Below, one piece after another: positions 12,219-39,160 of a stretch of DNA of 64,000 nt; position 1 is the first letter of the stretch, and the number at the start of each line of letters is the position of its first letter. Source of the stretch: Winogradskyella sp. PC-19 (GTDB lineage: Bacteria; Bacteroidota; Bacteroidia; Flavobacteriales; Flavobacteriaceae); NCBI RefSeq assembly GCF_002163855.1, contig NZ_CP019332.1, positions 99,213-163,212 on the forward strand, in the 5' to 3' direction. The notes under the pieces are model-generated. The model was not told where the DNA came from. It ran no database searches and worked only from the letters and a program-made list of their open reading frames with translations. Position numbers and translations under genes: made by a program.

Positions 12219-12223
12219 GAAAA

Positions 12224-13129: not shown

Positions 13130-13132
13130 ATC

Positions 13133-15311: not shown

Positions 15312-16058
15312 TTGGAAAAGAATTTCCAATTTATTTCCAAAAATGAATTATTAACTTTAAGATTTGTTAATCATAATAAAATGCATAGAGAACTACTTAT
15401 AAAAGCTTTTCAAAAGGCTGAAGAAGAAATACAAACAGATAAGGTTTTACCAAGAGCAAAATTGCTTTCAGATTTTATTCTAGAAGACAGTAAGGAACCT
15501 TATGGTGAAAAAATTTTGGGAATAAAGTTTAAGGCTGTAAAAGATGGCGCTAAAAAAACAATTCGACTAAAAAAACATGCCGAGGAAGCATTAAGTCATT
15601 ACTTAGATTATGAAGATTATCCATCTTTTTTAAAAGCAAATAGTGTAGATAAACCAGATGATAAGGGTAGAGTGGAAATATTTTGGAATAAAAATAAGAT
15701 TATACTGATAGTTTCATTAGTTATCATAACTAGCATAATAATTTATAACTCTTTAAATAGACAGCGTTGGATGATTTGGCAAGAAGATCATTATATAGAG
15801 GTGAAGTTAGATTTAGAGAAGTATAATGTAAATCAACTTAAAGTATATAAAGAAGAACGCGTAGAGTTTTTTAAGAAGATAAATCCAGATTGCAGTTATA
15901 AATTCTTTAATGATGATGGAAGTGTTATAATTTGGTATGGAAAGAACATTAAAAAAGAATTAGAATATTTTACAGCATTAGGTCTACATCCAGAAACTGG
16001 TGTTACTTTGAAACCAATCACTAATTATATGATTAATAAACATATTTGCGATAATTAA
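15312..16058 (+). CDS. Single-pass membrane protein of unknown function
   Basis: 248 aa from a TTG start; an in-frame TAA at 15297 rules out a longer form and no in-frame ATG precedes residue 24. Residues 1-120 are charged and cytoplasmic (LTLRFVNHNKMHRELLIKAF; ELLSHYLDYEDYPSF-like segment at 92-105), one helix at about 131-147, then a C-terminal domain with DLEKYNVNQLKVYKEERVEF and GLHPETGVTLKPITNYMI. I recall similar proteins as lone genes in Flavobacteriia, but no function. Transcribed towards and overlapping the GspM stop by 4 bp. Confidence 0.68.
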   Translation: MEKNFQFISKNELLTLRFVNHNKMHRELLIKAFQKAEEEIQTDKVLPRAKLLSDFILEDSKEPYGEKILGIKFKAVKDGAKKTIRLKKHAEEALSHYLDYEDYPSFLKANSVDKPDDKGRVEIFWNKNKIILIVSLVIITSIIIYNSLNRQRWMIWQEDHYIEVKLDLEKYNVNQLKVYKEERVEFFKKINPDCSYKFFNDDGSVIIWYGKNIKKELEYFTALGLHPETGVTLKPITNYMINKHICDN

Positions 16059-16570
16059 CCAAAACTCTTCAGCAAAACTCTAGCTTGAAGATAGTTTTTT
16101 CTGGAACGACGTTGCTTTTTGAGTTCAAAATGCACATGAATAACTTCTCCAAACTTGGTGTTTTGTTCTAAATGGTGTATGAGCTCAAGAATTGAATTAT
16201 AGTTTCCTTCTAAACTAAATTCGTAGGTCTTAGCTATAAGCTCATTTTGTTCTATTACATGAGGCTCTATAAACGAAGTAACTTTTATATCCTTTTCTTC
16301 CGAGAGTTTATTTAGTGTCTTTAAAAGATTATACTGTAATGAACCTTTTCCTATTTGGTATTGATTTAATAAAGTATCGTAGTATTTTTCTTTTTTCTTT
16401 AGAATAGCCAGTTGTGTAGGCATATCCTCAAATAATTTAGCCTCATTTTTAAGTGCTATATATTTATTTTTTAAATCAAAAGTTTTAGAAATTGAAACTT
16501 TGTAGGCTATTGCTGTTATGAATATAAACCCAATAGCTAAATAGATATTTTTAAGCTTGGGATTTTTCAT
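16055..16570 (-). CDS. GspM/PilO-like inner-membrane assembly protein
   Basis: 171 aa. Short cytoplasmic tail, one membrane helix (residues 8-24), a coiled coil (about 30-75) and a C-terminal ferredoxin-like domain with EFSLEGNYNSILELIHHLEQ, the usual PilO pattern (strand, then helix of a pairwise subunit). In T2SS/T4P machines it pairs with GspL/PilN to form the assembly platform. Overlaps the GspL-like gene by 20 bp and is the last gene of the minus-strand secretion half-operon. Confidence 0.75.
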   Translation of the reverse strand: MKNPKLKNIYLAIGFIFITAIAYKVSISKTFDLKNKYIALKNEAKLFEDMPTQLAILKKKEKYYDTLLNQYQIGKGSLQYNLLKTLNKLSEEKDIKVTSFIEPHVIEQNELIAKTYEFSLEGNYNSILELIHHLEQNTKFGEVIHVHFELKKQRRSRKNYLQARVLLKSFG

Positions 16571-17768
16571 TGATTTTTATTTTAATGCTAAAATTAGACT
16601 CACGTTTATTTACTGTTTCGTAATTAATTATATCAACAATTTTCACCCATTTTAGATTTTCAAGTTGAGTTAACCAACTTGAGAAAAACTCACTATCCAA
16701 TGATTTTCCGCTTATTTCTATTGTCCCAAGTTGACTCTCTATACTTTTATTTGATTGAATTTTTTTATCGAGAGGCTGATAATTAAGCTCTTTTAAACTT
16801 AATGATTCTGGTATGCTAATAATAATTTCATTTATATAATAAGAAGCTTTAGAATTACTTAAACGTTGAACATCTTGCACCTTCTTTTTAGATTTTAAAA
16901 CTTTATCTGCTAGCTTAGTCATTTTTTCTTGTGAAGATGACGTTATTTCAGAAGTGTTTCTTAGGTGGTCTAATTGATTGAAATAATAATTAAAGAATAA
17001 AAAATTAGTGATTAAAGTCACTAGCAAGAAAGTTATGATACCTCTTGATGCAAGTCTAAAAATGCGCTTATGTTTAAAGTTTTCTTTTAATTCTAAATGG
17101 TTGCGGTTAAAGTTACTTTTTAGAAGACTACTATTTAAAGCTAATTTTAAAGCTCCAGAAAATGCCAATAGATAGTTAGAGCTTATGTCCAAACCATTGA
17201 CATTATATGTTTTACTCTCTGTAGTGTTTGATTTCTTAATATTTTGAATTTCTTTTTCATCTAAACTAATAATAGTGTTTGATAGAGAGATAGATTCCGT
17301 TTTATTCAGAAAACTAAGTGTATTGGAAATAATCAAATTACCAATAATAAAATCAACAATATTGATTCTATTTGTTTGATATTCTTTTAGAATAGTATCA
17401 ATAACTTCTTTTCTGCATATTGAAACAAAAGCATTTCTCTTTTGTTTTAAAATTTCAAAATAAAACTCATCTTTATTAAGATTTGGAAATGCTTCGTTTA
17501 GTATTTTATTGTCATCTTGATGAGTACTATCTATGCTTTTTATTAGTACATCTGAAGTATTGATGACTAAAGTTACAGGCTTATCTTTACAAATAAGCTT
17601 AGCTACATCTTTTATATTATTAAAGCAATCCTTAGATATAATATCAAGCCTTTTTTTTGACTTTTTTAATTGTATAACATTAAAAACCTCTTCACTATCC
17701 TGTGTTGTGTATTCTATACCAAAAACGGTATTGCCAATTTCTAAATATGACGCTATTTTAGATTTCAT
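16551..17768 (-). CDS. GspL / PilM-PilN-like platform protein
   Basis: 405 aa. N-terminal 225 residues are cytoplasmic with an actin-like PilM/GspL flavour (ASYLEIGNTVFGIEY; LAFSGALKLAL at 205-215, as in PilM ends), one membrane helix at about 243-262 and a periplasmic PilN-like domain (QLGTIEISGKSLDSEFFSSW). This fusion order is that of GspL. It should link the GspE ATPase to GspM and GspF. Shares its start base with the secretin stop; followed by GspM. Confidence 0.75.
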   Translation of the reverse strand: MKSKIASYLEIGNTVFGIEYTTQDSEEVFNVIQLKKSKKRLDIISKDCFNNIKDVAKLICKDKPVTLVINTSDVLIKSIDSTHQDDNKILNEAFPNLNKDEFYFEILKQKRNAFVSICRKEVIDTILKEYQTNRINIVDFIIGNLIISNTLSFLNKTESISLSNTIISLDEKEIQNIKKSNTTESKTYNVNGLDISSNYLLAFSGALKLALNSSLLKSNFNRNHLELKENFKHKRIFRLASRGIITFLLVTLITNFLFFNYYFNQLDHLRNTSEITSSSQEKMTKLADKVLKSKKKVQDVQRLSNSKASYYINEIIISIPESLSLKELNYQPLDKKIQSNKSIESQLGTIEISGKSLDSEFFSSWLTQLENLKWVKIVDIINYETVNKRESNFSIKIKINEKSQA

Positions 17769-19930
17769 TAATCAATAATTGTTGGCTTTATAAATACAGT
17801 AAGCCTTGACTTTCTTGCTTCTCTTTTACGCTTGCTAAAAAGCCACTTAATTATAGGAACTCTTGCAAGAAAAGGTACACCTGAGCCACTATTGTTTTTA
17901 AAATTTTCTTCAAGTCCACCTAAAACAGCAATATCTTTATCTTTCATTCTTACTGTTGATGAAAAGTTCCGTGAATTTATATCAGGTGGTGCATCTTCAG
18001 CTATTCTATTTCCAAAGCTAGACTGCACAACTTTTATATTTAATAAAACTTGCCCATCACCAGTGACATAAGGTTTAATATCTAGTCCTAGTTTTGCATC
18101 AATAGGGAAGTAGTTACGGATTTCATTAGTTACAGGGTTATCAGTTCCAAATGTATTTCTATCTGTAACTGCATAATATGAAGTCTGTCCATTAGAGAAT
18201 GAAGCTCTATGACCATTGAGTGTAGCCAACTTTGGAGTTGACTTTATTTTTAAGTCTCCATTAGTCTCCATAGCTTTTATGGTGGCAAAAAAATTAGGTA
18301 CTACGCTGCCAAAATTAAATGCCGATGTATTACCAAAGCCATTTATAATTTTATTAATTGTTTTTGCACCCAAGGTTAAATCTGTATTTGGAAAAATTCC
18401 ACCTTGTGTTGTACTAGGATTATCTCCAATACCCCATTCAACACCAGTTTCAACAGTATTACTAATACTGGCTTCAACTATCATAACCTCGATAATAATT
18501 ACAGGAATTGGCTTATCTATGTGAGTGATAAAATCTTTAAAAAATTGAATTTTTGCTCCAGTACCAGTAACATATATGCTATTTAGTTCTATATCAACTT
18601 TAAAATCTAAGCCTTCTTTAACTTCGTCTGGTATTAAGTCTAAGATATCTTTTTCTTCTCCTTCAATTTCTAATGTATTTTGGTCTTGATAATTTCGATC
18701 TATTGGTCTAGTTGTATTGCTATTATTGAAGTTTCCTTGAGGCGTAAAACGAACATTTCTATTAGACCTATTAAAATTGCTTTCTACAACACTAGAGTTA
18801 ATATCTGATTGCGTATCTGGCATTAGATTTACAGAACGATGTCTTAATCTAATAATTTCAACATTTCTAACGCTTAATTGATGCTCTGTTCCGAAATAAT
18901 AGATATTGTTTTCCTTTTTATATGTAAATCTTTTCCTTTTCGAAACTGAAGAGTTATTCTGTACTGTATTAGTTCTATTGGAAGAGGTAATGGTTTTATT
19001 TGTAGATGTTATTACTTCAGTTTGAGTTTCAAACATTTTGTTCAATAACTCATCAAAAGTGATATTCTGGGCTCTAAAAGTAATGTTGCCTGCTTCTTTT
19101 AATGGTGTCGCTGTAAATCTATTAATAGCCAATGTATCTCCCAACTGATTAACAATCTCTTCTATAGAAATATTTTCGAAGTTTACATTAAGTAATTGAT
19201 TATTGATATCAATAACTTCAAAAGCCACATCAGAATTTATTCTTCCGTAAAAACTACTTTTGGACGTTTTGTCTTTATTTAGCGTATCAAATACATAAAA
19301 ATTATCTTTTGTTTTTACTAAGGTCATATTATTCGTTAATGCCAATTTCTCCATAGCAGAGTCAAAATTCACAAGCTTCATATAGGCATTCAACTTTGTG
19401 TTTTCCATCCCAGGTGCAAAAACTAAATTTTTGCCTGTCTTATCCATTATAACTTTAAACACGTCATAAAGGTTATTATCCTTTATATCCATATCGACTT
19501 CATTGAATTGAGGATTATATTGGACATAGATATCGTGTTTCTTTGGTACAATATCTTTAGAATTGTAAGGCTTTATAGACAATATGTTTTCTGTAAATTC
19601 TATAGTTAAGCTATATTCTTTACATAGAAAAAGTATAGCTGTAGATACATTTACATTTGAAAAGTTATTTGAGATGGTAGCTTGCTGAATGTTTGGGGAA
19701 ACATTCATGTTAATTTTATGAATATTAGATACAGCTAATAAAAAACTGGATAATGATATGTTATTAAGCGCAATATCCGTGTTTAATTGTTCTGAAAGCC
19801 CTGGAGAAGAAGAAGCTGTAATTTCTAGCTTGTTTCTTAAATCATTAATACGTTGCGTTTCATCTTGAGTATACCCAAATTGGAGTGAAAGAAAAATGAA
19901 AAGTATGAATATTTTAAATTTTAATTTCAT
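17768..19930 (-). CDS. gspD: Secretin (GspD/PilQ family)
   Basis: 720 aa. Signal peptide (IFILFIFLSLQFGYTQ). Periplasmic N domains at about 40-330 (e.g. NNISLSSFLLAVSNIHKINM, ISIEEIVNQLGDTLAINRF), an Asn/Arg-rich linker, a further N domain (DFKVDIELNSIYVTGTGAKI) and the secretin core (about 480-720), with VPIIKWLFSKRKR and SRLTVFIKPTIID at the end. A VLGGL motif precedes the last strand pair. It forms the outer-membrane gate of the machine. No lipobox or pilotin gene seen. Three bases separate it from gspE upstream. Confidence 0.92.
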   Translation of the reverse strand: MKLKFKIFILFIFLSLQFGYTQDETQRINDLRNKLEITASSSPGLSEQLNTDIALNNISLSSFLLAVSNIHKINMNVSPNIQQATISNNFSNVNVSTAILFLCKEYSLTIEFTENILSIKPYNSKDIVPKKHDIYVQYNPQFNEVDMDIKDNNLYDVFKVIMDKTGKNLVFAPGMENTKLNAYMKLVNFDSAMEKLALTNNMTLVKTKDNFYVFDTLNKDKTSKSSFYGRINSDVAFEVIDINNQLLNVNFENISIEEIVNQLGDTLAINRFTATPLKEAGNITFRAQNITFDELLNKMFETQTEVITSTNKTITSSNRTNTVQNNSSVSKRKRFTYKKENNIYYFGTEHQLSVRNVEIIRLRHRSVNLMPDTQSDINSSVVESNFNRSNRNVRFTPQGNFNNSNTTRPIDRNYQDQNTLEIEGEEKDILDLIPDEVKEGLDFKVDIELNSIYVTGTGAKIQFFKDFITHIDKPIPVIIIEVMIVEASISNTVETGVEWGIGDNPSTTQGGIFPNTDLTLGAKTINKIINGFGNTSAFNFGSVVPNFFATIKAMETNGDLKIKSTPKLATLNGHRASFSNGQTSYYAVTDRNTFGTDNPVTNEIRNYFPIDAKLGLDIKPYVTGDGQVLLNIKVVQSSFGNRIAEDAPPDINSRNFSSTVRMKDKDIAVLGGLEENFKNNSGSGVPFLARVPIIKWLFSKRKREARKSRLTVFIKPTIID

Positions 19931-19934
19931 TCAA

Positions 19935-21341
19935 TTAGTTGTTTAAAAGTGGGTAAACCTCTTCAAGAGATGTAATTCCGTCTCTAACTAGATTTATTGC
20001 ATTTTGCTTAAGCGTTACAATTTTATTATCATTTAAATAATCATCAATGTCCAGTTCATTAGATTTAATATGCCTTATGAGGGATGTATTTATAGGTATT
20101 ATCTCATAAATGGCTTTACGTCCACTATATCCAGTATAAAAGCAGGACGGACATCCAATAGGAACAAATTGTTGCTCTAAGCCTTTATCAGGTTTGTAGT
20201 TTAGTGGGTAATCTTCCGATTTTATCTTTTTTCTTTCTTTACATTTCACACACAGTTTTCTAACTAAACGTTGCGCAACACTGACATTTAATGTACTTGC
20301 AATTAAGAATGGTGGAATACCCATATCTACTAATCTAGATATTGTAGCCCATGCAGAATTTGTATGTATTGTTGACAGAACTAAATGTCCTGTTAAGGAT
20401 GCTCTTATAGCCATGTTAGCAGTTTTTACATCTCTTATCTCACCAACCATAATGACATCTGGGTCTTGTCTTAAAAATGTTCTAAGTGTGCTCGAAAAAT
20501 CAAGACCTATGTTTTCTCTAAGCTGTACTTGGTTGATACCTTCAAGAGTGTACTCAATAGGGTCTTCAATAGTTAGAATATTAGTTTTTTCATTATTGAG
20601 TAATTTTAAAGTAGCATATAGAGTTGTTGTTTTGCCAGAACCTGTTGGTCCAGATATTAGGACTATACCATTTGGTTTTTTAACACATTCTTTATATGTA
20701 ATTAACTCTTTGGTAGTGAAGCCAAGATCATTTAATTGAATATGTTCTGCATCTTTACTCAATATTCTGAGTACCATTTTTTCACCATGTAGAGTAGGTA
20801 AAGATGATACTCTAATATCATATTCCTCAGTCACAGACTTTATACTTATTCTACCATCTTGAGGTAGACGTTTTTCAGAAATATCTAATCCAGCTCTAAT
20901 TTTTAACTTATTAATGATGACAGGATATTCTTCTGTTGCTATAATGTAGTATTCTTTCAGTTTTCCATCTAAACGTAGTCTAACTCTGCACTTATGTTCA
21001 AAGACTTCAAAATGGATATCACTACTGCCAATTTGTTTTGCACTATCAATGAGTTTTTCTAAAAAATCTGTGCTGTAATTTAAATTTTGAGTGTTTGCCT
21101 GTGTTTTAATTCTGAAATTATGGCTTAGATATTTTTCTATGTTATTGTCAGAATCTTCAATTAGCTTTATATCTCTTCCTAAAACAATTTTTAGCTCTTG
21201 CTTTAAATCATCTGTTACGTCCTTAGTTTTAAAGGTAATTATATCATCTTCTAATGCTATAGGAATAATATTATAGTTGTAAGCTTGTTCACTACTAATT
21301 AGTTGAACTAACTGTGTTGGTATTTGAAATTCAGCTACCAT
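19935..21341 (-). CDS. gspE: GspE/PilB-type assembly ATPase
   Basis: 468 aa. Walker A GPTGSGKTTTLYA near residue 230, Asp box EDPIEY, Walker B DPDVIMVGEIRD near 293, His box STIHTNSAWATISRL, and a CVKC...CPSC zinc module near 365-400, all typical of GspE/PilB. The N-terminal GspE N1 part is shortened. Cytoplasmic hexamer powering pseudopilus assembly through GspF (35928-37058). No PilT-type retraction ATPase is seen in the window, which favours a secretion pseudopilus over a retractable pilus. Confidence 0.94.
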   Translation of the reverse strand: MVAEFQIPTQLVQLISSEQAYNYNIIPIALEDDIITFKTKDVTDDLKQELKIVLGRDIKLIEDSDNNIEKYLSHNFRIKTQANTQNLNYSTDFLEKLIDSAKQIGSSDIHFEVFEHKCRVRLRLDGKLKEYYIIATEEYPVIINKLKIRAGLDISEKRLPQDGRISIKSVTEEYDIRVSSLPTLHGEKMVLRILSKDAEHIQLNDLGFTTKELITYKECVKKPNGIVLISGPTGSGKTTTLYATLKLLNNEKTNILTIEDPIEYTLEGINQVQLRENIGLDFSSTLRTFLRQDPDVIMVGEIRDVKTANMAIRASLTGHLVLSTIHTNSAWATISRLVDMGIPPFLIASTLNVSVAQRLVRKLCVKCKERKKIKSEDYPLNYKPDKGLEQQFVPIGCPSCFYTGYSGRKAIYEIIPINTSLIRHIKSNELDIDDYLNDNKIVTLKQNAINLVRDGITSLEEVYPLLNN

Positions 21342-21820
21342 TATATACTATAAAGGTTAGTGGTTATACCAGTCCAATTCGAAACGTAAACTAGAATAAA
21401 AAATAGACTCATATAACCAGCAAGTGGTATTGTAGTTACTTTGTTTTTTTGCTTAAGAAGTAAGTGTAATAGTAAGGAAAATATAAGTGAGAAAACGAAA
21501 ATAACTATATACGATATTGACGCAAAGCTGAATGCTAAGCCTATAAAAAGTAAAGCATCACCCAAGCCAAAAACATTTTTAGGAGATGTTTTTAGTTTAA
21601 ATATTGAGTAACTATATACAATAGTGAGTAAGAAAACAACCATAGCTAGATTAACCAAAACATTGATAATAAATAATTCAAGAATAGTACTATTGTAGAA
21701 TAATATTCCTGAAATTAAGGCTACCAAAGGAAATAAGAACCAATATACCTGTCGTTCTTTTATATCTTGAAAAAGAATCAAAGCAAACCCTGTGATAAGT
21801 ATGATTTTTAATAGAATCAT
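21341..21820 (-). CDS. Short prepilin peptidase (A24 aspartic protease)
   Basis: 159 aa, about five membrane helices. Catalytic aspartates are D19 (FQDIKERQ) and D88 in the signature FGLGD. The N-terminal cysteine-rich methyltransferase domain of PilD/GspO is absent, so the size matches TadV/CpaA or archaeal types. It should trim the pseudopilins encoded at 21824, 35148 and 35464. Start overlaps the gspE start region by one base with gspE downstream; 3 bp after the GspG-like gene. Confidence 0.88.
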   Translation of the reverse strand: MILLKIILITGFALILFQDIKERQVYWFLFPLVALISGILFYNSTILELFIINVLVNLAMVVFLLTIVYSYSIFKLKTSPKNVFGLGDALLFIGLAFSFASISYIVIFVFSLIFSLLLHLLLKQKNKVTTIPLAGYMSLFFILVYVSNWTGITTNLYSI

Positions 21821-21823
21821 TAA

Positions 21824-22228
21824 TTAGTCTTTAACTATTTGTTTTGGGTTACCATTTTCATCAATCTCCCAAACATTAAATACACCATCACCATCAAAAT
21901 CATTAATTGCTGTTGCTCTGGCTTTAAAAGATGTATCAGATGCATTTAAAATTTCATATACATAATTGCTAGTACCTTCTTCCTTAGTAGTTTTTGGAGG
22001 TTCAAAATCCAACTCATTCATGTTAATGGTGTATTTAGAATTGAGATACCTATGCGTTGTTTGATTATTATAGATGTACTTTAACTGAATTTGAGCTTCA
22101 ACACTTTTTGTTCTTGCAATTAGAGGCATTAGACTTGGCAAGGCTAATAATAAAAGAATGCCAATTATGGCCAATACTGTTAATACTTCCTGAAGATTAA
22201 AAGCATCTACTTTATTTTTTTGCTTCAT
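21824..22228 (-). CDS. Major pseudopilin (GspG-like)
   Basis: 134 aa. Short basic leader (MKQKNKVDA), cleavage site A|FNLQE with Glu5, then a hydrophobic helix (VLTVLAIIGILLLLALP). C-terminal DFDGDGVFNVWEIDENGNP is a calcium-loop-like stretch as in GspG. The residue before the cut is Ala instead of the near-universal Gly. Encoded just after the response regulator and before the prepilin peptidase. Expected to be the main subunit of the pseudopilus. Confidence 0.88.
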   Translation of the reverse strand: MKQKNKVDAFNLQEVLTVLAIIGILLLLALPSLMPLIARTKSVEAQIQLKYIYNNQTTHRYLNSKYTINMNELDFEPPKTTKEEGTSNYVYEILNASDTSFKARATAINDFDGDGVFNVWEIDENGNPKQIVKD

Positions 22229-22246
22229 AGCTATAGAATTTAAATT

Positions 22247-22924
22247 TTAAAGAAAGCCAGCTATTTCAGCTTTTACTATTAAGTCTCTATCACTACCATT
22301 ATCAACTTCAAAAGTTGTTTTTAGTCCATACTTTCTCTGTTCTACTGCACTTTTAGATAAGCAAACAAGCTCAGCTATTTCAGAGGTTTTAGCACCTTTA
22401 TGTAGATGATATAGTAATTGACGGTCAATCTTGTCAAGTACAAAACTATTAGAGATATGTCTACGTATTAATTGCTGTATAGCCTTACTGTAGTATGGTG
22501 GCTCTTGTAATACAGACTGTATAGCATCTAGTAATTTTAAATAATTAATATCACTTTTTATAAGAAAGCCATCAGGATCTATAGACTTAAGAATATTGTT
22601 AAGTCTATAATTATTATTATGGGAGGTAAAAACAATAACCTTAACTTTTGGAAATAAACTTTTTATTTCTATTCCTAAATCTTCTCCTGACAAAATACGT
22701 TTGTCACTCGAAGGCGGAATAGATATATCCAATAAGATTAAATCAAAAGGTACTGACTTTACTGCTCTATCAATTTCATTAAGGGCTAAATCAGAGTTTG
22801 TTGCTGACTTTACTTTAAAATCATAACGTCCGTTAGATTCACTAATACTATTTAATGCATTCTTTAACACATCAATAATCAGTGGTTCATCTTCTACAAT
22901 TAAAACATTAATTGGTTCACACAT
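22247..22924 (-). CDS. Response regulator heading the secretion operon
   Basis: 225 aa from the ATG at 22924 (MCEPINVLIVEDEP), preferred over a start 14 codons earlier because the receiver begins there. Receiver with acidic pocket ED, phospho-acceptor D66 (LILLDISI), T (VFTSH) and K (LIKSD). C-terminal HTH of LuxR type (LYHLHKGAKTSEIAELVCLS). No histidine kinase adjoins it; the TPR kinase at 13133 is the nearest. First gene of the minus-strand half-operon and divergent from Rhs1, so it is well placed to control both. Confidence 0.85.
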   Translation of the reverse strand: MCEPINVLIVEDEPLIIDVLKNALNSISESNGRYDFKVKSATNSDLALNEIDRAVKSVPFDLILLDISIPPSSDKRILSGEDLGIEIKSLFPKVKVIVFTSHNNNYRLNNILKSIDPDGFLIKSDINYLKLLDAIQSVLQEPPYYSKAIQQLIRRHISNSFVLDKIDRQLLYHLHKGAKTSEIAELVCLSKSAVEQRKYGLKTTFEVDNGSDRDLIVKAEIAGFL

Positions 22925-22966
22925 ATTCTTTCTAATATCCACACCTGTATAAGAAGGTGTATTCAA

Positions 22967-23179
22967 CTTCTACGAAAATATTAGATGTGTGATAATTACA
23001 ACAAAGGAAAAGCCTTTGAATAAATGGGGGAAATCCACAACTGTAAAAAAAATAAGGGATATAAATTTACAGACATTATTTAAGAACTCGACTGTATGTC
23101 AGTAAAAAATATTATTGATGTAATAATCGGGGCTTAATTAAGAATATCAGGGTAAATAATCCAATAAACGTATTTAAAA
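22967..23179. promoter_or_regulatory. Divergent control region between the secretion operon and the first Rhs gene
   Basis: 213-256 bp between the response regulator start and Rhs1. It contains the inverted repeat CAAAGGaaaaGCCTTTG around 23003-23020. I found no clean TAnnTTTG box. Divergent expression of machine and cargo from one region, beside a response regulator, suggests joint control, an inference from layout. Confidence 0.4.
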
Positions 23180-26578: not shown

Positions 26579-26589
26579 ATATAATAGAT

Positions 26590-26988: not shown

Positions 26989-27006
26989 TTAAATTCATTT
27001 CAAGTT

Positions 27007-30000: not shown

Positions 30001-30711
30001 CCATATACTTATGCTTTTAATGACCCTATTAGGTTTGTTGACCCTGATGGAATGGCACCTGATGACATAGTTTTAAGAGGTAAAAATAATTCAAGTGTCA
30101 CAATAAAAACAGATTTGATAAATGTTGATGTCAATGTTGGTGGTATTGTAGGAGATTTAGGAGGTAATTATTCTTTTGAAGGTGATGATATTTTAGTTGC
30201 AGGATTAGATATTGTAGGTATTGCTGACCCAACTGGTGTTGCAGATATAGCTTCTGCCAGTATTGAAGCTAAAAACGGAAATTGGGGCGGAGCTATTTTA
30301 AGTGGTTTAGGTGTTATACCATATGTTGGAGATATAGGAAAAGTTGGTAAAATTGGTAAACACGTTAAAACAATTAATAAAGCTATTGATGGTGCTAAAG
30401 CTGTAAATGGTAATTCCAAAGCGAGTAAAAAAGCACAACACGTATATGAAATAGTAAATAATACCACAAAAAATGTAGAGAAAGTAGGTATAAGCGGTGG
30501 AAAAATATCTAAAGCAGGTAACTCATATCGAGCAACAAGTCAAGTAAATAAACTCAATAAGGCAGGCGGTAATTATTCTTCACGTATTGTAGAAAAAATA
30601 TCTGCTGGTAAAGGAGCAAGACAAAAGGCTTTAAATGCAGAAAAAAGAGTTACTAATGCTAACAAAAAGACTTTAAATCCATTAATACATAAAAGACCAA
30701 AAGCAAACTAA
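27007..30711 (+). CDS. DUF6443 Rhs polymorphic toxin with GIY-YIG/URI-like C-terminus
   Basis: 1234 aa. Signal peptide (LFLIGLSFGFSSFSQ), an Ig-like part, then the DUF6443 region (SVTYFDGLGRAKQSIGIRAG), many YD repeats (YDQYGRAEKEY, YDDFGNLTYVLPP) and the Rhs core (YNGKEHQQELGLNWYDYQAR; NDPIRFVDPDG near 1007-1017). After the core comes a Gly-rich pre-toxin segment and, from about 1144, QHVYEIVNNTTKNVEKVGIS ... SYRATSQ ... ARQKALNAEKR, resembling the GIY-YIG/URI nuclease fold (Y/VGIS, Arg, Glu). This suggests a DNA-cutting toxin. Core assignment firm, toxin fold inferred. Confidence 0.9.
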   Translation: MSSIKSRTLNKTIFLFLIGLSFGFSSFSQNITGTTNPSLNSSETYLFNDGNLWPYFNWQVVGGTVTSSGLQSGTTYYAVVNWTTLGAGSITARRKGIVLGTLSVTVANGGGAPVCADTNLSNNENYVHTLAPRIATTNTSGLSNDQKIESVTYFDGLGRAKQSIGIRAGAGCEDIITHVAYDQYGRAEKEYLPFAQGNNGGAQHSNALSATNTFYNTTKYENTPNPFSEKEFEASPLNRVFKQAAPGQDWAMGSSHEIELDYQTNGIDEVRRYKVSTSLHVYNRAKTYNPSLISDGYYNPSELYKSITRDENHTVGDNYNHTTEEFKDAEGRVILKRTYNNNETHDTYYVYDDFGNLTYVLPPKVDTSNGVSSSELDDLSYQYVYDYRNRLVEKKIPGKGWEYIVYNLLDQPILTQDANQRAKSPDEWLFTKYDAFGRIAYTGLVKSNTARHVIQNSGDNPNHMHYETRRTEHNVLGTLMNYTHDAFPVSGVVAIYTINYYDDYAFDKDGGNSETAYGVTPITSVTNLATGSKVRVLGTSDWITSVTYYDDKARPIYVYSKNNYLDTTDKIKSDLTFDGTVTETTTSHARQGFSTITTVDSFTYDHMNRLIDQQQTINGSAAEVIVENTYDELGQLESKGVGGTTAQTRLQTVDYKYNIRGWLKEINDVANMGNDLFSFKLGYNEGANPLFNGNISQTQWRSNNTDNTLKGYTYQYDALNRIINATDNTGKFNLDLVSYDKNGNIDQLIRKGAVVNQPVLSNNSHFNTMDNLIYTYSGNKLTKVLDNGNDNYGFIDSAVNDQDYWYDSNGNMTKDDNKGITNITYNHLNLPTSVSINGNGNNGTITYIYDATGVKQTKTVSNGATTYYSGNYIYENSTLKFFSHPEGYIEPNGSNFDYVYQYKDHLGNIRLAYSDSDNNGSVNSSEIIEENNYYPFGLEHKGYNNVVNGREHNYKYNGKEHQQELGLNWYDYQARNYDPALGRWHVIDPLADEFYDWSPYTYAFNDPIRFVDPDGMAPDDIVLRGKNNSSVTIKTDLINVDVNVGGIVGDLGGNYSFEGDDILVAGLDIVGIADPTGVADIASASIEAKNGNWGGAILSGLGVIPYVGDIGKVGKIGKHVKTINKAIDGAKAVNGNSKASKKAQHVYEIVNNTTKNVEKVGISGGKISKAGNSYRATSQVNKLNKAGGNYSSRIVEKISAGKGARQKALNAEKRVTNANKKTLNPLIHKRPKAN

Positions 30712-30713
30712 TT

Positions 30714-31451
30714 ATGAATTTGAATTATATATCATTGGGTTTAGATTACAACACTTACATTGGTGTTGATAATGAGCTTCGTTATGATTTTCAACAACAT
30801 ATAGATTTTATTAACGATTATTTTTCAAAAGCAATTAGAAAAGATAAGTTTAAAACTGATGGCACATTCAATATGATTAACGTTGCTTTATCGGAGTTTG
30901 AGTTAAAAACATCATCTATTGTGCCTTCTAACGTATTGCAAGTACATTTAGATTTTGATAAGTCGAAATATAAAAAGGCAAAAAAAACAAACGACTGTAG
31001 TTATTATTTAGAATTACTTGAAAAAGGTTTTAAAAAAGCTCACAAGTTTAAATCCATACCGTTAGATAATCTTTTGAATTTGATAGAGGAATTTAAAAAA
31101 GGAGATTGTTTAAATAAATGGGTTCACAAGAAAAAACGTTTTAAAGGAGATGATTTAGAAATTATACTAACTTGTGAATTAACTACTAACTGTTTTCAAT
31201 TGTGGTTAACTGCAAATAAAATAAGCACTAAAGAAGAGCTGATAAATGGAGTTATAATGAGAACAGAAACAGGAACTTCAATTCACGAAGGAATGTTTAA
31301 AAACATTATAATTGATAAAGATATTATAATAACTGACAAGAGTGATAGCCCAAGAGTAATAGTAAATAAACAGGCTGTATTTAAAAGGGAGTTATTATTT
31401 GAAATAAACGGTGATTCTGAAATAAAAGAAATATTATCGTATGAATTATAA
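30714..31451 (+). CDS. Candidate immunity protein
   Basis: 245 aa, cytoplasmic by sequence, no signal peptide or membrane helix. Starts 2 bp after the Rhs toxin stop, the standard place for an immunity gene. Contains LQVHLDFDKSKYKKAKK, a Lys-rich middle (HKKKRFKGDDLEIILTCEL) and SIHEGMFKNIII near the end. No family recognised. A strong terminator follows. Role inferred from position. Confidence 0.75.
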   Translation: MNLNYISLGLDYNTYIGVDNELRYDFQQHIDFINDYFSKAIRKDKFKTDGTFNMINVALSEFELKTSSIVPSNVLQVHLDFDKSKYKKAKKTNDCSYYLELLEKGFKKAHKFKSIPLDNLLNLIEEFKKGDCLNKWVHKKKRFKGDDLEIILTCELTTNCFQLWLTANKISTKEELINGVIMRTETGTSIHEGMFKNIIIDKDIIITDKSDSPRVIVNKQAVFKRELLFEINGDSEIKEILSYEL

Positions 31452-31472
31452 GTAACAAGAATTAATGTAAAG

Positions 31473-31497
31473 CCACAACGAAAGTTGTGGTTTTTTT
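31473..31497 (+). terminator. Terminator after the immunity gene
   Basis: CCACAAC-gaaa-GTTGTGG followed by seven T: a 7-bp stem with a GNRA-type tetraloop, 22 bp past the immunity stop. Ends the Rhs transcript before the IS. Confidence 0.9.
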
Positions 31498-31609
31498 ATT
31501 TATAAGCTAAACGAGTTTTAGCATCACGAAGTAAAGCATCAAGATTATAAAGGATAGCTTCTTTATCCTGCTCTGCTACGTCCAAAGCACTTTTAAAATA
31601 ACGTGTCCC
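31496..31609 (-). pseudogene. 3' fragment of a helix-turn-helix regulator gene
   Basis: Minus-strand reading frame RYFKSALDVAEQDKEAILYN then LDALLRDAKTRLAYK and a TAA at 31496-31498; upstream it meets an in-frame stop at the edge of the IS region. The pattern resembles the C-terminal tail of Bacteroidota XRE-type regulators, so this looks like a gene cut off when the IS or flanking DNA arrived. No start or HTH remains. Confidence 0.45.
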
Positions 31610-31632
31610 TTAAATGGGAATAGATATAGAAA

Positions 31633-31654
31633 CACCTGTTGATTCAGGTGTTTT
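31633..31654. terminator. Terminator beyond the transposase gene
   Basis: CACCTG-ttgatt-CAGGTG with T runs on both strands (TTTT on +, TTTC on -), 14 bp past the transposase stop. Short 6-bp stem, plausible bidirectional terminator at the IS edge. Confidence 0.55.
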
Positions 31655-31667
31655 CTGTTTATACTAA

Positions 31668-32933
31668 CTAAGTACATATTTTACAGCTGCTATTTTTATT
31701 CAGCTTAATTCTTAGATCTTTTTGTTCTTTAAAACCCAATTTATATTGGTTAAAATTTGTGATTTTCCCTGAGTACGTTTCTAATGGCGTATTTCCTCCC
31801 AAAGATTTTTGTGGTCTTTTACTGTTATATGTTTCTACAACCTGTACAAAAATATTAGCTAATTGTTTTTTTGAGTTTATGTTTTTTGGGTAAAGAAACT
31901 GGTGCTTCAATATTTTATTTAAAGCTTCTATCATTGAGTTAGAATATAAAACATCGCGCTGCGCAATGATATGTTTGTGAGGAAATACTATATTATTTAA
32001 AAATGAGAATACATTACTATTTATATTTTCTGTACCTGCATCTGTAACCAATTCTAATTTATCTGGTTTGTATCGTTTTGTAGCTTCTCTTAATATATTT
32101 GCTAGTGCTTTTCCAGAATTTGATGTTTCAATTTTATAACCTAGTATATACTTTGAGTAATGATCCATTAGTATATGTATATAGTGTTTTTTACCATCTC
32201 CTGTTTTAAAGATAGTTACATCGGCACACCATTTTTCATTTGGTTGCTTAGTAATAAGTGGATTATAATCATTGCTTTTTTTTCGTTTTGGTTTGTTAGC
32301 AAAACCCAATAACCTGCAATAATTATAAAAAGTACTATCGCAACACTTAAGTGCATTATCTCTAACTGCTTTAATGTATACAGATGCTTTTGACCAAAAC
32401 TGATAATCTTTATGAGTCATATAAGATTTAATCACTTCAACTTCTTTTGGTAGCAATTGATTTGGAAAACGTTTGCTACATCTACTATAATATGAGCTAT
32501 CACATTTATGGATGACTATAGATTTATAATTCTGGTATGTGCTACGAGAAATGCCAAACAGTTTTAATGCACTTTCTATAGGAATGCTCTCCTTTACTTG
32601 TTCTATAGTATTTACAATAATAGCTTTGTTATTTTTTATAGATTTTTTTAATGGTTTTGCATTATCTGTAATGTGATTAAATGCATCGATGAGTCTAAAA
32701 TAATTTTCATTTAACTGTTTTATCCTTGAGGACTGACAGAATCGTTTTATTAAATCTAACTCTTGTTTTAATAGCTCGTTAAGTTCTGAAAACTCGTATT
32801 TATCTTCAGGCTCATGTTTCCACCTCGATATGTTACTACTTGGTAATTGAGAATATTGTTCTCTTGTCAAAATAGATTCTAATATTCCTAAACGTGCTAA
32901 ATGTTTTACAGATGTATCCCATGATTTTCGCAT
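31668..32933 (-). CDS. DDE (rve-type) transposase of an insertion sequence
   Basis: 421 aa in one frame. N-terminal HTH (SVKHLARLGILESILTREQ; SALKLFGISRSTYQNYKSI), then an integrase-core DDE domain: first Asp in KWCADVTIF, second in LVTDAGTEN, Glu in SNSMIEALNKILKHQF, and a C-terminal NSKRPQKSLGGNTPLE typical of IS3/IS481-like elements. Apparently intact. It lies between the immunity gene and the second machine half-operon. Terminal inverted repeats could not be fixed, so the exact IS ends are left open. Confidence 0.88.
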   Translation of the reverse strand: MRKSWDTSVKHLARLGILESILTREQYSQLPSSNISRWKHEPEDKYEFSELNELLKQELDLIKRFCQSSRIKQLNENYFRLIDAFNHITDNAKPLKKSIKNNKAIIVNTIEQVKESIPIESALKLFGISRSTYQNYKSIVIHKCDSSYYSRCSKRFPNQLLPKEVEVIKSYMTHKDYQFWSKASVYIKAVRDNALKCCDSTFYNYCRLLGFANKPKRKKSNDYNPLITKQPNEKWCADVTIFKTGDGKKHYIHILMDHYSKYILGYKIETSNSGKALANILREATKRYKPDKLELVTDAGTENINSNVFSFLNNIVFPHKHIIAQRDVLYSNSMIEALNKILKHQFLYPKNINSKKQLANIFVQVVETYNSKRPQKSLGGNTPLETYSGKITNFNQYKLGFKEQKDLRIKLNKNSSCKICT

Positions 32934-32995
32934 TGTATTTATTTTTTAAAATGAGCCAACCAATAAAAAATAGATACTTGTAATATCACAAGGTA

Positions 32996-33042
32996 TTTCC
33001 CTTTGTCTTGCAAGGGAAACATCGTATCAAAACAAAGGGAAA
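32996..33042 (+). promoter_or_regulatory. Leader hairpins before the second secretion half-operon
   Basis: TTTCCCTTTG (32996-33005) pairs with CAAAGGGAAA (33033-33042), while CCCTT (32999-33003) can pair instead with AAGGG near 33012. Two alternative stems 58-100 bp upstream of the lipoprotein start could act as an attenuator, or be the outer end of the IS. Undecided. Confidence 0.35.
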
Positions 33043-33099
33043 ACCACAATACATGACGATTGAAATGTATTAAATTTCTTCTTTAAAAGATAAATACAA

Positions 33100-33459
33100 A
33101 TGAGAATACGTTTTCTTTTTCTTTGCTCACTTTTAGTATTAGTGTCTTGTGAAGAAATTATTGAGGTAGAGGATATTTCCCAAGCACAAATAGATATTTT
33201 GGCACCAACAAATGATGCTGTTTTAAACACGACTCAATTAAGATTTTCGTGGCAAGACTTAGAGTTTTCAGAATACTACAGATTACAAGTAGCGACACCT
33301 AATTTTTTAGAAGCTATACAAATTGTAGAAGATACTTTAATCTCTACTACTGAGTTTAATAAAATCTTACAAGTAGGAGATTATCAGTGGCGTATTAAGG
33401 CTATTAATTCAGCTTATCAAACACAATATCAAACCCAATCTTTCAGCATTGAAGAATAA
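33100..33459 (+). CDS. FN3-like lipoprotein of the secretion cluster
   Basis: 119 aa. Lipobox LVLVSC gives lipidated Cys17. The rest is one fibronectin-III-like domain (TNDAVLNTTQLRFSWQDLEF; YYRLQVATP; YQWRIKAINSAYQ). First gene of the plus-strand half-operon, overlapping the PilP-like gene by 11 bp. By position it could be the pilotin-like partner of the secretin, though it does not resemble known pilotins. Confidence 0.75.
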   Translation: MRIRFLFLCSLLVLVSCEEIIEVEDISQAQIDILAPTNDAVLNTTQLRFSWQDLEFSEYYRLQVATPNFLEAIQIVEDTLISTTEFNKILQVGDYQWRIKAINSAYQTQYQTQSFSIEE

Positions 33460-33910
33460 GAAAAAGACATATGGACTTTTAGTATTGGTTATCGCAGTTT
33501 GGGGCTACATTGGGTATTATGTGATGACATCATTAGACCCTTCATTACCTGATTATACAGAATCTAAAATAGCATTTAAGGATGATTTTGTTTTTAATAA
33601 TTCCTTTGAGAAATTCTCAATTCAAAGAGTAAATAGAGACCCTTTTTTAGGTACGGTAGAGACTCCTATATCTCAAAAAACAAATACACCAAAAATAAAA
33701 AAGCAAATGTCTTGGAAACCTATTAGTTATTTAGGTATGATAGCTAATGACACTAATAAGGATAAAGTGTTTATCCTGTCAATAGCTAATCAACAAGTAT
33801 TACTAAAACAAGGACATACTCATGATAGTGTAAAAGTTATTAGAGGAAATGCTAAGAATATTACACTGAGGTACAAAGACAATACCAAAAGTTTTAAACT
33901 AAAGACATGA
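33449..33910 (+). CDS. PilP/GspC-like linker protein
   Basis: 153 aa from a TTG start that overlaps the previous gene; no better in-frame start. One membrane helix (residues 7-27), a flexible linker, then NRDPFLG and a beta domain (WKPISYLGMIANDTNKDKVF; VLLKQGHTHDSVKVIRGN) as in PilP/GspC, which bridge the inner platform to the secretin N0 domain. Overlaps the GspK-like gene by 4 bp. Confidence 0.8.
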   Translation: MKNKKKTYGLLVLVIAVWGYIGYYVMTSLDPSLPDYTESKIAFKDDFVFNNSFEKFSIQRVNRDPFLGTVETPISQKTNTPKIKKQMSWKPISYLGMIANDTNKDKVFILSIANQQVLLKQGHTHDSVKVIRGNAKNITLRYKDNTKSFKLKT

Positions 33911-35160
33911 TAAGTCCAAAAAAGCTAAACGCTGGTTCTCTGCAATTGGTAACCTTTGTGATTGTTGTTATAGCATTGTTGTTAGGATGCTTTATTCTTT
34001 TGGTGCATACTCAGAAACAGTATAGAGTCAAAACCTATCTACTAAAAGACACTATACAAAATACTGACAAGGGAATTTTATATGTTTTAGAGCATAACAA
34101 TATTAACCAAGATAGTTTAGAGATTGTTACAGATGAGAATTTAAGTCTAAAGTTAAAAACAGAACTTTGGGGTACTTACCAGAAAGTAGGTGTTGTATCT
34201 AAGCTTAAAAATTTTAAATACAAAAAAACCGCACTTATCGGCGCAAAGCAAGAAATTGATAATACTGTATTGTATCTAAAAGATAATAACAAGCCTTTAG
34301 TGCTTGTTGGAAACACCAGAATTAAAGGAAATAGTTCTTTACCAGAGCAAGGCGCAAAATCTGGAAATATTTCTGGTATCTCTTTTAATGGAAATCGATT
34401 TATAGAAGGTAAAGTAGATATTAGTAAGCAGTTTCCTAAACTTAGTTTTCAGACACGTAGTTATATTCAGAATATTCAGTCAATATACGATTCTGATAAA
34501 AGTTTAGAGAACTTCAAAATCAAACTTGGAAGCTCAGTTTCAAACTCTTTTGAGAATGAAACCTTGGTTAGTGTAAGTTCTGATGCCATTTACCTCGAAG
34601 ATATTTCTCTAATTGGTAATCTCGTTATTCAGTCCTATTCGAAAATTGTAGTAAGTAATACGGCTAAGCTTAAAGATGTGATTCTTATTGCACCTAAAAT
34701 TGAAATTGAAGACAATACAACAGGAAGCTTTCAATCTTTTGCAACTGACCATATTTTAGTTGGTAATGGTTGTAAACTCCAATATCCATCGGCATTAGCA
34801 TTGGTAAAACCATTTACAGATACGTTTCAAGAAGAACATAAAATTCTGATAAATACTGGTTCTAAATTACAAGGAAGCATTATTCTATTGGGAAGAAAAG
34901 AAAGAAATAACTACAATCCTCAGATAGTTATAAACCCAGAAGTAACTGTTGAAGGTGAAGTATACTGTGAACAAACTTTGGAATTAAAGGGTAAAGTATA
35001 TGGGTCGGTATTTACAGATAGTTTTATCGCTATTGCTAATGGGTCTTATTATCAAAACCATTTATTAGATGCAGAGATAAATAGCGCTGAGTTAGAAGAT
35101 GAATACATCGGTTTGCCATTAGTTAATACAAAGAAAGGAGTTGCTAAATGGTTGTATTAA
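33907..35160 (+). CDS. GspK/PilX-like large minor pseudopilin
   Basis: 417 aa. Starts MISPKKLNAG then SLQLVTFVIVVIALLLGCF: a class III-like leader with Gly before the cut and no Glu at +5 (Val), which is the GspK condition. The large exported part has a repetitive beta-helix/bactofilin-like stretch at about 215-370 (EDISLIGNLVIQSYSKIVVS; TVEGEVYCEQTLELKGKVYG). As GspK it would cap the tip of the pseudopilus. Overlaps GspI-like by 13 bp. Confidence 0.7.
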   Translation: MISPKKLNAGSLQLVTFVIVVIALLLGCFILLVHTQKQYRVKTYLLKDTIQNTDKGILYVLEHNNINQDSLEIVTDENLSLKLKTELWGTYQKVGVVSKLKNFKYKKTALIGAKQEIDNTVLYLKDNNKPLVLVGNTRIKGNSSLPEQGAKSGNISGISFNGNRFIEGKVDISKQFPKLSFQTRSYIQNIQSIYDSDKSLENFKIKLGSSVSNSFENETLVSVSSDAIYLEDISLIGNLVIQSYSKIVVSNTAKLKDVILIAPKIEIEDNTTGSFQSFATDHILVGNGCKLQYPSALALVKPFTDTFQEEHKILINTGSKLQGSIILLGRKERNNYNPQIVINPEVTVEGEVYCEQTLELKGKVYGSVFTDSFIAIANGSYYQNHLLDAEINSAELEDEYIGLPLVNTKKGVAKWLY

Positions 35161-35474
35161 AAAAAATAAAAGCATCTACTTTGATGGAGACTTTAGTAGC
35201 GACAGTGCTCATTGTTGTAGTTTTTATGATGGCTAGTCTTATTTTAAACAATACGTTTTCTAACCAGATAAAAAACAATAACCATCAGTTGAAAAATTAT
35301 ATCTATGAGTTGGAGTATATGTATGTTTCAGACAAAATAAGTTTACCATATAATTCTGAATACAAAGATTGGTCTATATCTGTTTTTAAAAACATAGAAT
35401 CGTCTGAGGTAATTATTTCTGCAATACAAAATGTAACAAAGAAAGAGCTAAAGCAAGTTATATATGCACATTGA
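35148..35474 (+). CDS. Minor pseudopilin (GspI-like)
   Basis: 108 aa. Basic leader MVVLKKIKA, cut at A|STLMETLVATVLIVVVFM with Glu5 and the METLVA pattern typical of GspI/PilV. Short exported domain. As in the GspG-like protein, Ala replaces Gly at -1. Overlaps both neighbours, showing tight coupling within the minor-pseudopilin set. Confidence 0.85.
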   Translation: MVVLKKIKASTLMETLVATVLIVVVFMMASLILNNTFSNQIKNNNHQLKNYIYELEYMYVSDKISLPYNSEYKDWSISVFKNIESSEVIISAIQNVTKKELKQVIYAH

Positions 35475-35928
35475 TAAAAAAATACCATCAATGACTATTA
35501 ATGAAATGCTAGTGGTTATTATTATATCGACCATAGTCGTTGGTATGGCATTTTCTGTGTTGCGTATGGTTCAGCAACATATGTGGTCCATTGAAAAATA
35601 TATTTCAAAAAATAGAACTATAACAAGCTTAGAGCAATCACTTTGGATTGATTTTAATAGATATAGTTCTATAAACTATAACAGTGAAAAATCTACATTG
35701 TTCTTTAAATCTGAGTTAGATTCAGTTACTTATAGATTTGATACTGAGTTAGTAGTTAAAAACAGAGATACTTTTAGGCTAGCAACAAAAACTAAACACT
35801 TATTTTTTGATGGTAATCGAATAGAATCTGGTAAGATAGATGCACTTAAATTAATCCTAGAAAAAACACCTATTGAAAAATCACTTTTTGTATATAAACG
35901 AAAAGATGCACACCAATTTATGAACTAA
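35464..35928 (+). CDS. Minor pseudopilin (GspJ-like)
   Basis: 154 aa. Leader MHIDKKIPS, cut at S|MTINEMLVVIIISTIVVG with Glu5, Ser at -1. Downstream QQHMWSIEKYISKNRTITSL and SLWIDFNRYSSINYNS recall GspJ/PilW. Completes the likely I-J-K tip complex. Its stop overlaps the gspF start by one base. Confidence 0.82.
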   Translation: MHIDKKIPSMTINEMLVVIIISTIVVGMAFSVLRMVQQHMWSIEKYISKNRTITSLEQSLWIDFNRYSSINYNSEKSTLFFKSELDSVTYRFDTELVVKNRDTFRLATKTKHLFFDGNRIESGKIDALKLILEKTPIEKSLFVYKRKDAHQFMN

Positions 35929-37058
35929 TGGCATTTGATTTAACCAAAATAGAAAAAAGAGAATCTATAGCGGTAGCTAAAGACAAACCTTCTATTCTCG
36001 AAAAAGAAATAGTAGTTTTTAAAAAACCTTTTTCAAATAAAATTAAAGAAGATTTTTATACAGAATTAAGTGTGTTATTAAAAGCAGGAGTTAACCTTAA
36101 AAACGCGCTAGAATTACTTTTAAACGCACAAAAGCAACAACAAAATAAAGATGTTGTAAAAACGATACTTACAGCAATTATATCCGGAGAGAGTTTATCT
36201 CAATCTGTGAAGAATCTTAAACCTTTTTCAAGGTATGAATACTATTCTTTAAAAATAGGAGAGGAGACAGGTAGGACTGCTGAAATTGCTGAGCAACTTG
36301 GTGATTTCTTCTCAAGAAAAAATGAACAACGTAGACATCTCGTCAATGGTCTGACTTATCCTGCAATAATTTTAATTACAGCTCTATTGGTTGTTGTATT
36401 CATGCTACAATTTGTAGTGCCTATGTTTCAAGATATCTTTAAACAACAAAATGTGGAGTTACCAGGGATTACAAATTTTGTTGTGTCACTCTCTAATGGT
36501 ATACAAGATTATGGTTGGATTATACTAGTTGGATTCTTTGGAATACTTGTTATAGCTAAACTTTTAAAAAATAACATTAGATATTTAAGACTAAAAGACA
36601 AAATACTAAGCAAAATTCCATTTGTTGGTGATTTTATAAAAACTGTATATCTGTCTCAATTTACCCAAGCAGTAGCACTTTTAACCGCATCTAAGGTGCC
36701 AGTTGTAAATAGTATAAAGCTAGTCAAACAAATGATAGCTTATCAGCCCTTAATTCAATCTCTAGAAGTTGTTGAACTAGAACTTTTAAAAGGGAATACA
36801 TTAAGTAAAAGTCTATCTGAACACAAACTCTTTGATGATAAGATGATAGCATTAGTTAAAGTTGCTGAAGAGACAAACCAAACCAAGTTTATATTTAATA
36901 GATTAAATCAACAATACAACACCAAAGTACAACAACGGTCTAAGTTATTATCTACAGTTTTAGAACCATTCATTATACTTGTTGTTGGTGTTTTTGTTGG
37001 GTTTATTTTAGTAGCAATGTATTTACCAATGTTTAGACTAAGTAGTGTTATTGGGTAG
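35928..37058 (+). CDS. gspF: GspF/PilC inner-membrane platform protein
   Basis: 376 aa. Two tandem GspF domains: first with FYTELSVLLKAGVNLKNALELL and IGEETGRTAEIAEQL, second with TQAVALLTASKVPVVNSIKL and LVKVAEETNQTKFIF, and three membrane helices (about 145-167, 193-212, 345-368) ending VAMYLPMF. It translates GspE motion into subunit addition. Last gene of the plus-strand half-operon, followed by integrase-associated genes on the other strand. Confidence 0.93.
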   Translation: MAFDLTKIEKRESIAVAKDKPSILEKEIVVFKKPFSNKIKEDFYTELSVLLKAGVNLKNALELLLNAQKQQQNKDVVKTILTAIISGESLSQSVKNLKPFSRYEYYSLKIGEETGRTAEIAEQLGDFFSRKNEQRRHLVNGLTYPAIILITALLVVVFMLQFVVPMFQDIFKQQNVELPGITNFVVSLSNGIQDYGWIILVGFFGILVIAKLLKNNIRYLRLKDKILSKIPFVGDFIKTVYLSQFTQAVALLTASKVPVVNSIKLVKQMIAYQPLIQSLEVVELELLKGNTLSKSLSEHKLFDDKMIALVKVAEETNQTKFIFNRLNQQYNTKVQQRSKLLSTVLEPFIILVVGVFVGFILVAMYLPMFRLSSVIG

Positions 37059-39116: not shown

Positions 39117-39160
39117 AGTAGCGAGAACGAGATTTGAACTCGTGACCTCCGGGTTATGAA
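39117..39160 (-). repeat. Proximal attachment site within tRNA-Met
   Basis: 44 bp identical to 4090-4133, spanning the anticodon loop to the tRNA 3' end plus one base. Crossover took place somewhere within it, at the tRNA-anticodon-loop-to-3'-end sublocation used by many tyrosine integrases. Confidence 0.93.

Follow-up and report, generated by a model that had tools for sequence, protein, structure and literature searches.

Two questions are raised by a single locus: by which route do large Rhs toxins leave a cell of Bacteroidota, and what does the type II secretion system (T2SS)-like machine of this phylum export? The locus lies in a 64-kb window of Winogradskyella sp. PC-19 (contig NZ_CP019332.1), in which two divergent halves of a T2SS-like gene set enclose four genes, coding for a YD protein, a DUF6443-Rhs protein with a small exported protein between the two, and a likely immunity protein. 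The minus half (16055-22966) comprises GspM-, GspL-, GspD-, GspE-, GspO- and GspG-like genes and a response regulator gene, the cargo block (23180-31451) lies on the plus strand, and the plus half (33100-37058) begins with a lipoprotein gene followed by GspC-, GspK-, GspI-, GspJ- and GspF-like genes. An earlier note on this DNA had described Rhs genes enclosed by two divergent machine halves, and its genes and coordinates held up. With somewhat better than even confidence, we propose that the locus encodes a pilus-derived exporter with a split toxin shell resembling that of Tc (ABC) toxins as its main cargo, carried on a 35-kb tRNA-Met island. The export of large toxins from cells is called enigmatic in the abstract of PMC10847048, and the pertinent part of PMC5561996 places Rhs genes in islands and does not mention T2SS.

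Co-occurrence of the machine and DUF6443-Rhs genes

A GspE scan of named genomes returned 80 loci, nine of which (L001-L009) are Bacteroidota machines. YD or Rhs genes were found inside the examined stretch at L001, L003, L005, L006 and L007, and none in the stretches examined at L002 (4.1 kb only), L004, L008 and L009. On the scale of whole genomes, DUF6443 was present in all eight genomes of L001 and L003-L009 (in that of L009 weakly, E 3e-5) versus none of 14 control genomes.

We then surveyed 199 genomes of Flavobacteriaceae, the family of Kordia, with a GspD profile, scoring up to six candidates per genome, so that some machines may be missed. The machine was detected in 38 genomes with a best GspD E value below 1e-180 in each, and no other genome reached 1e-10. 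DUF6443 occurred in 36 genomes, 34 of which carry the machine (Fisher p 2e-31); the earlier note had asked whether the Rhs pair is equally common elsewhere, and it is not, with DUF6443 in 34/38 machine genomes versus 2/161 machine-less ones. The exceptions are G123 and G138 with DUF6443 only, and G065, G083, G092 and G157 with the machine only (GspE confirmed). G138 carries GspF fragments and may represent a machine remnant or an assembly gap. The Rhs core was found in 38/38 machine genomes versus 34/161 others. As a control family, TANFOR was uninformative, with none of the 199 genomes over the cut-off and weak matches in two.

Across the phylum, 296 genomes were surveyed (GspD positive at E<=1e-60, up to four candidates scored per genome, nine weak secretin matches of 1e-10 to 1e-13 scored negative). 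GspD was present in 26 genomes, DUF6443 in 47 and both in 21 (p 7e-15). All 26 machine genomes carry the Rhs core (G415 at E 7e-6 only); the corresponding rate in machine-less genomes, 8/30, is too low, as these 30 were taken from the top of a list with DUF6443-positive ones left out, and this contrast was not used. Over both surveys, which share four machine genomes, every one of 60 distinct machine genomes has a Rhs core.

To correct for kinship, rpoB was sought in 80 genomes (38 with the machine, two with DUF6443 only and 40 others, 20 of them picked for a Rhs core) and matched in 75; the partial sequences of G087 and G120 were left out, giving a tree of 73 genomes. The machine changed state at least 20 times on this tree. 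In 20 path-disjoint pairs of genomes with and without the machine, taken from the best tree regardless of support, DUF6443 differed in the same direction in 15-19 pairs and in the opposite direction in none over 500 draws. With well-supported branches only, eight pairs remained, a mean of 7.0 of which went the same way (median p 0.016), and a few draws had one opposite pair. The link between the machine and DUF6443 thus survives correction for kinship. Genome size was controlled for with counts made by eye on genomes of listed size: at 3.6 Mb or more, DUF6443 was present in 25/28 genomes with the machine versus 1/21 without.

Physical distance was considered as well. DUF6443 lay within 30 kb of GspD in 22 of the 38 Flavobacteriaceae machine genomes (22 of the 34 with DUF6443, about 1.3 of 34 being expected by chance), and in six further ones a Rhs core did so. 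The earlier note had named homologous machines consistently lacking Rhs neighbours as telling against its idea. Most of them do have such neighbours: at a distance of up to 30 kb from GspD, DUF6443 or a Rhs core is found in at least 28/38 machine genomes of the family and at least 21/26 of the phylum. Among 90 DUF6443 copies in machine genomes (counted without nine rows, eight being second pieces of a listed domain and one a match in a 153-aa frame), 24 are no more than 30 kb from GspD, 17 further away on a shared contig (up to megabases) and 49 on other contigs. Because so many copies are distant or on other contigs, the link is not just one of neighbourhood, and distant copies are what a shared exporter predicts.

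An alternative that we regard as unlikely yet worth weighing is that the machine mainly exports other proteins, such as fibre-like GNVGIGT proteins, adhesins or enzymes, with Rhs genes accumulating nearby since both travel on islands and plasmids. Hitch-hiking accounts for the neighbours and fits the location of the window set on an island, but it does not easily account for the genome-wide tie between DUF6443 and the machine, and it is hard to square with the finding that all machine genomes in the two surveys have a Rhs core. Candidates for such other cargo were seen: L001, L003 and L166/L167 have GNVGIGT proteins beside the machine, such motifs occur in L008, and exported proteins with GNVGIGT-like motifs were seen near machines or YD-Rhs pairs in L190, L192, L206 and L208 as well. 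They are a possible second cargo family. In addition, mutants of Cytophaga hutchinsonii in a homologous machine show a cellulose phenotype.

The machine is of a Bacteroidota type related to type IV pili

In a Pfam scan of 30 window proteins, only four machine components passed the cut-offs: the secretin (GspD/PilQ-like, 17768-19930; Secretin E 6e-39), the assembly ATPase (GspE/PilB-like, 19935-21341; T2SSE E 3e-123), the GspL/PilN-like protein (16551-17768; PilN E 5e-5), these three on the minus strand, and the platform protein (GspF/PilC-like, 35928-37058, plus strand; T2SSF E 5e-42). The remaining assignments of the earlier note stand on other grounds or below the cut-offs. On the minus strand, the GspM/PilO-like protein (16055-16570; PilO E 0.06) and the GspO-like prepilin peptidase (21341-21820; Peptidase_A24 E 0.007) are under the cut-off, the former having a counterpart at the equivalent position in relatives and the latter a conserved position. 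GspC, G, I, J and K were named from gene order, pilin-like N termini and matches of relatives. The GspG-like major pseudopilin (21824-22228, minus strand) has a pilin-type N terminus by eye and weak pilin matches, and is kept in relatives. On the plus strand, the GspC/PilP-like protein (33449-33910) was placed by position and relatives, and relatives also guided the naming of the GspK-like minor pseudopilin (33907-35160; Bactofilin E 8e-4, under cut-off), the GspI-like protein (35148-35474; N_methyl E 0.08, under cut-off) and the GspJ-like protein (35464-35928). The plus half is headed by a lipoprotein (33100-33459, plus strand) with a lipobox recognized by eye and kept in relatives; the minus half is headed by the response regulator (22247-22966, minus strand; Response_reg E 1e-10), which holds an equivalent place in L003, L168 and L169.

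The ATPase, secretin and platform protein scored under every listed NCBIfam cut-off both for T2SS (GspD 143.9 vs 351.35, GspE 464.2 vs 630.25 and GspF 221.5 vs 424 bits) and for type IV pili (type IVa PilB 482.1 vs 675.65 and PilQ 145.6 vs 284.35 bits). In a quick tree of 81 rows, which holds no Cytophaga sequence, the GspE-like ATPases of Bacteroidota, including that of the window, form one separate clade of 10 rows on a long stem with full SH-aLRT support (100). By these sequence features, the window machine can be placed with the "so-called T2SS of Bacteroidetes", as a putative exporter of Bacteroidota type within the type IV pilus family. As described in passages of PMC6668835 and PMC5553014, that system likewise has D, E, F, G, a short prepilin peptidase and PilN/O/P-like parts; PMC6668835 clusters it with type IVa pili and considers that it may be a new kind of secretion system with its origin in such pili. 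Table 2 of PMC5553014 lists the machine for Flavobacterium johnsoniae too (Fjoh_0611-0622, with Fjoh_0618 as the secretin). Its cargo is unsettled in those accounts, whereas the window type is here tied to split Rhs toxins. Two machine secretin genes per genome were found in G002 (the genome of L001) and G001 (Kordia).

Another reading takes the machine for a pilus that imports DNA, with the Rhs nuclease killing nearby cells so that their DNA is released for uptake. The ATPase and secretin do get slightly better scores with the PilB and PilQ models than with those for GspE and GspD, none reaching its cut-off, and the window GspG has a weak ComP match. However, only one T2SSE-type ATPase was found among the 30 scanned proteins, and neither a retraction-type ATPase nor a competence gene was recognized among them. 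We regard this explanation as very improbable.

The YD and Rhs proteins as a possible split, Tc-like toxin shell

The cargo genes all lie on the plus strand. The YD protein (23180-26578), taken as the TcB-like half of the proposed shell, is followed by a small protein (26590-26988) without Pfam match and by the TcC-like Rhs protein (27007-30711), which matches DUF6443 (E 1e-44), the Rhs core (E 1e-16) and, at its tip, the nuclease-like Tox-URI2 (E 1e-12); signal peptides were assigned to all three by eye. The next gene (30714-31451) has nothing over the Pfam cut-off and is likely the immunity gene, given its start 2 bp after the Rhs stop. YD precedes Rhs in 38/40 loci, either immediately, with one or two small genes in between, or joined to it in a single gene; several relatives have small genes of similar size between them, and a single fused YD-Rhs gene was seen.

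The structure model of YD can be aligned to TcB from close to the start (4igl_C 27-875) and that of Rhs to TcC (4igl_B 8-688). When the PDB was searched by sequence with a profile of YD, one chain was returned, at E 0.74. The low-confidence models liken YD to TcB and Rhs to TcC, and the two-part toxin probably forms a shell. The suggestion in the earlier note that the Rhs pair makes a shell is thus favoured by the structural matches and the fused gene, on models of low confidence.

The Rhs tips are unrelated among relatives, which fits the layout of Rhs polymorphic toxins. Tip exchange was observed in two tandem Rhs genes that are identical over 3083 nt and then unrelated (L164:2986-15923); that contig also carries a lipoprotein gene resembling the head gene of the plus half of other loci. 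A variable tip is common to Tc toxins and the window Rhs. In contrast to Tc toxins, both parts have signal peptides by eye and are accompanied by a pilus-like machine of their own, and no TcA-sized open reading frame (ORF) was found, none exceeding 1234 aa in the window. Compared with Rhs effectors of the type VI secretion system (T6SS) such as RhsA (7q97) and RhsP (8h8b), the window toxin has a Sec-type N terminus, is split into two genes and gave no PAAR or VgrG match in Pfam on its Rhs protein. Weak DUF6443 matches (profile about 13-90) in several genomes, many in frames of about 3000-3900 aa (e.g. G164:C1:3239092-3239325), are perhaps fused giant relatives of the YD-Rhs pair.

Machine-less loci and a carrier with a T9SS sorting domain

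YD-Rhs pairs also occur without the machine, and at 10 of 20 such loci (L170-L176, L179, L182 and L183, in 6 of 15 genomes) a carrier protein of about 550 residues, cut or split in some copies, is encoded directly upstream of YD. The sorting domain of type A of the type IX secretion system (T9SS; TIGR04183, NCBIfam) was present on all eight carriers tested. With 1 kb or more of sequence before YD in view, the carrier was found in 9/13 machine-less loci, 0/13 loci of machine genomes and 0/8 other YD genes (Fisher 5e-4 for 9/13 vs 0/13, a p value that is too small since loci share genomes); at four machine-less loci with a good upstream view it was absent. This pattern suggests an exporter swap between the machine and T9SS.

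A different reading of the carrier is that YD-Rhs shells leave by T9SS, unaided or with the tagged carrier, and that the machine performs a linked job such as display or delivery. The tagged carriers of the machine-less loci speak for it, but their absence from all 13 loci of machine genomes with that upstream view speaks against it, as do the window YD and Rhs proteins, which lack a T9SS tail (no NCBIfam sorting-domain match at E 0.1). We consider this explanation quite improbable. Other Bacteroidota toxins do stand near T9SS-tagged genes: the TANFOR polymorphic toxins, as presented in part of PMC7073777, are exported and encoded in such surroundings, and differ from the window Rhs in their N-terminal domain.

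A model for export and what weighs against it

In the model of a pilus-derived exporter for a split shell, the YD and DUF6443-Rhs proteins would each reach the periplasm via Sec and assemble there into a hollow shell holding the variable C-terminal tip, which the pseudopilus would push out through the secretin. The immunity protein would protect kin, the nuclease-like tip would enter and attack a presumed target cell, and Rhs pairs from other places in the genome would use the same machine. The genome comparisons suggest that the export of such toxins may be the chief purpose of this poorly understood machine. A bolder version, to which we give a little under even credence, holds that the Bacteroidota machine is a separate system evolved from type IV pili, that its founding cargo was a Sec-exported two-piece Tc-like shell and that machine-less lineages moved the shell to T9SS via the tagged carrier.

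Several observations weigh against the model. We infer export of YD and Rhs by the machine from genomes, and no exporter-specific signal was recognized in the YD and Rhs proteins. Once folded, a TcB-TcC shell may be wider than a secretin can pass. The structure models are of low confidence (pLDDT 44 for YD and 48 for Rhs, from 7-row alignments), and their matches to T6SS Rhs proteins and to teneurins are about as good as those to Tc proteins. The kinship test was weaker with any Rhs core in place of DUF6443 (median p 0.125), and the DUF6443 copies on other contigs may partly be neighbours split by assembly gaps, L207 being one case. The GNVGIGT-type proteins adjoining several machines and the cellulose phenotype in Cytophaga point to other cargo, and the pairs without a machine, some behind a T9SS-tagged protein, to another exit. 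In all, 26/270 machine-less genomes of the phylum survey carry DUF6443, and 22 of these 26 have no GspF match; the machine is therefore not required everywhere, and the idea that every DUF6443 depends on it was dropped. Among these 26 genomes taken together with G123 and G138, GspF was found in five, and it is machine-like only in G138 and G372. The proposal of the earlier note that the Rhs toxin has its own exporter is accordingly backed by co-occurrence as a tendency, with export itself conjectural.

The genome-wide, kinship-corrected tie between machine and toxin names a testable substrate for the machine, and an exporter swap with T9SS would make the shell, not the route, the conserved unit. 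The earlier note regarded a dedicated machine of this kind as unfamiliar. The machine type is in fact known, and our literature search on its pairing with Rhs found one case in print, with no paper on a general link. This is a cluster of about 35 kb in Flavobacterium psychrophilum CC-ST10 (PMC5808330), laid out like the window with T2S genes in two opposed loci; two genes with ABC-toxin-like domains (FPSM_02426 and 02429) are numbered between these loci. In its passages on the cluster, that paper deals with one species and possible virulence, without a general link or an analysis of exporter swap. Judged by the literature searched, the parts were already known, and what is new comprises the general link, the statistics corrected for kinship and the carrier with the T9SS tag.

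The gene set is carried on an integrative island

A perfect direct repeat of 44 bp marks both ends of an island of about 35.0 kb (4090-39160): the left copy (4090-4133, plus strand) is identical to the right one (39117-39160, plus strand), which covers the 3' part of a tRNA-Met gene (39118-39192). A tyrosine recombinase gene (37755-39065, minus strand; Phage_integrase E 1e-7) lies at the tRNA-Met end. Judged by the repeats and the recombinase, the gene set sits in a tRNA-Met integrative island, in agreement with the mobile system envisaged in the earlier note, whose coordinates were narrower. G+C content is mostly 0.27-0.33 within the island and 0.36 over the Rhs gene, with 0.35 in the left flank; composition backs the left border only, because G+C just right of the island is also about 0.30.

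The gene order was as noted earlier except for an overlooked rve-type insertion sequence (IS) transposase gene between the immunity gene and the plus half (31668-32933, minus strand; rve E 7e-15). L001, L005, L169 and L207 have a lipoprotein gene at this spot, for which tblastn found no window counterpart (best E 0.08, elsewhere). Because the transposase occupies that spot in the window, it is suggested to have replaced the lipoprotein gene of relatives within 31452-33099. The island further encodes, in 4637-14818, a staphylococcal-nuclease homologue, two DUF4407 proteins, a second response regulator and a tetratricopeptide repeat (TPR) protein that weakly matches histidine-kinase ATPases.

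Related gene sets were also found on plasmids. A secretin search gave five of 515 plasmid records covering at least 80% of the query, all from Bacteroidota, and four of the five have Rhs relatives. The Persicobacter plasmid CP012864 carries a machine flanked by two YD-Rhs pairs. In CP012857 the machine is nearly complete, and distant relatives of YD and Rhs lie to one side of it. Two Flavobacterium plasmids have machine genes, partly broken, plus Rhs-core pieces; a Pontibacter plasmid has machine genes and no Rhs in the 39.5 of 92.9 kb covered. In a set of viral contigs, Rhs relatives occurred in 23 loci (strongest 38% identity), three of which (L210-L212) also have YD relatives, and GspE relatives occurred in nine loci with identities of 34-49%.

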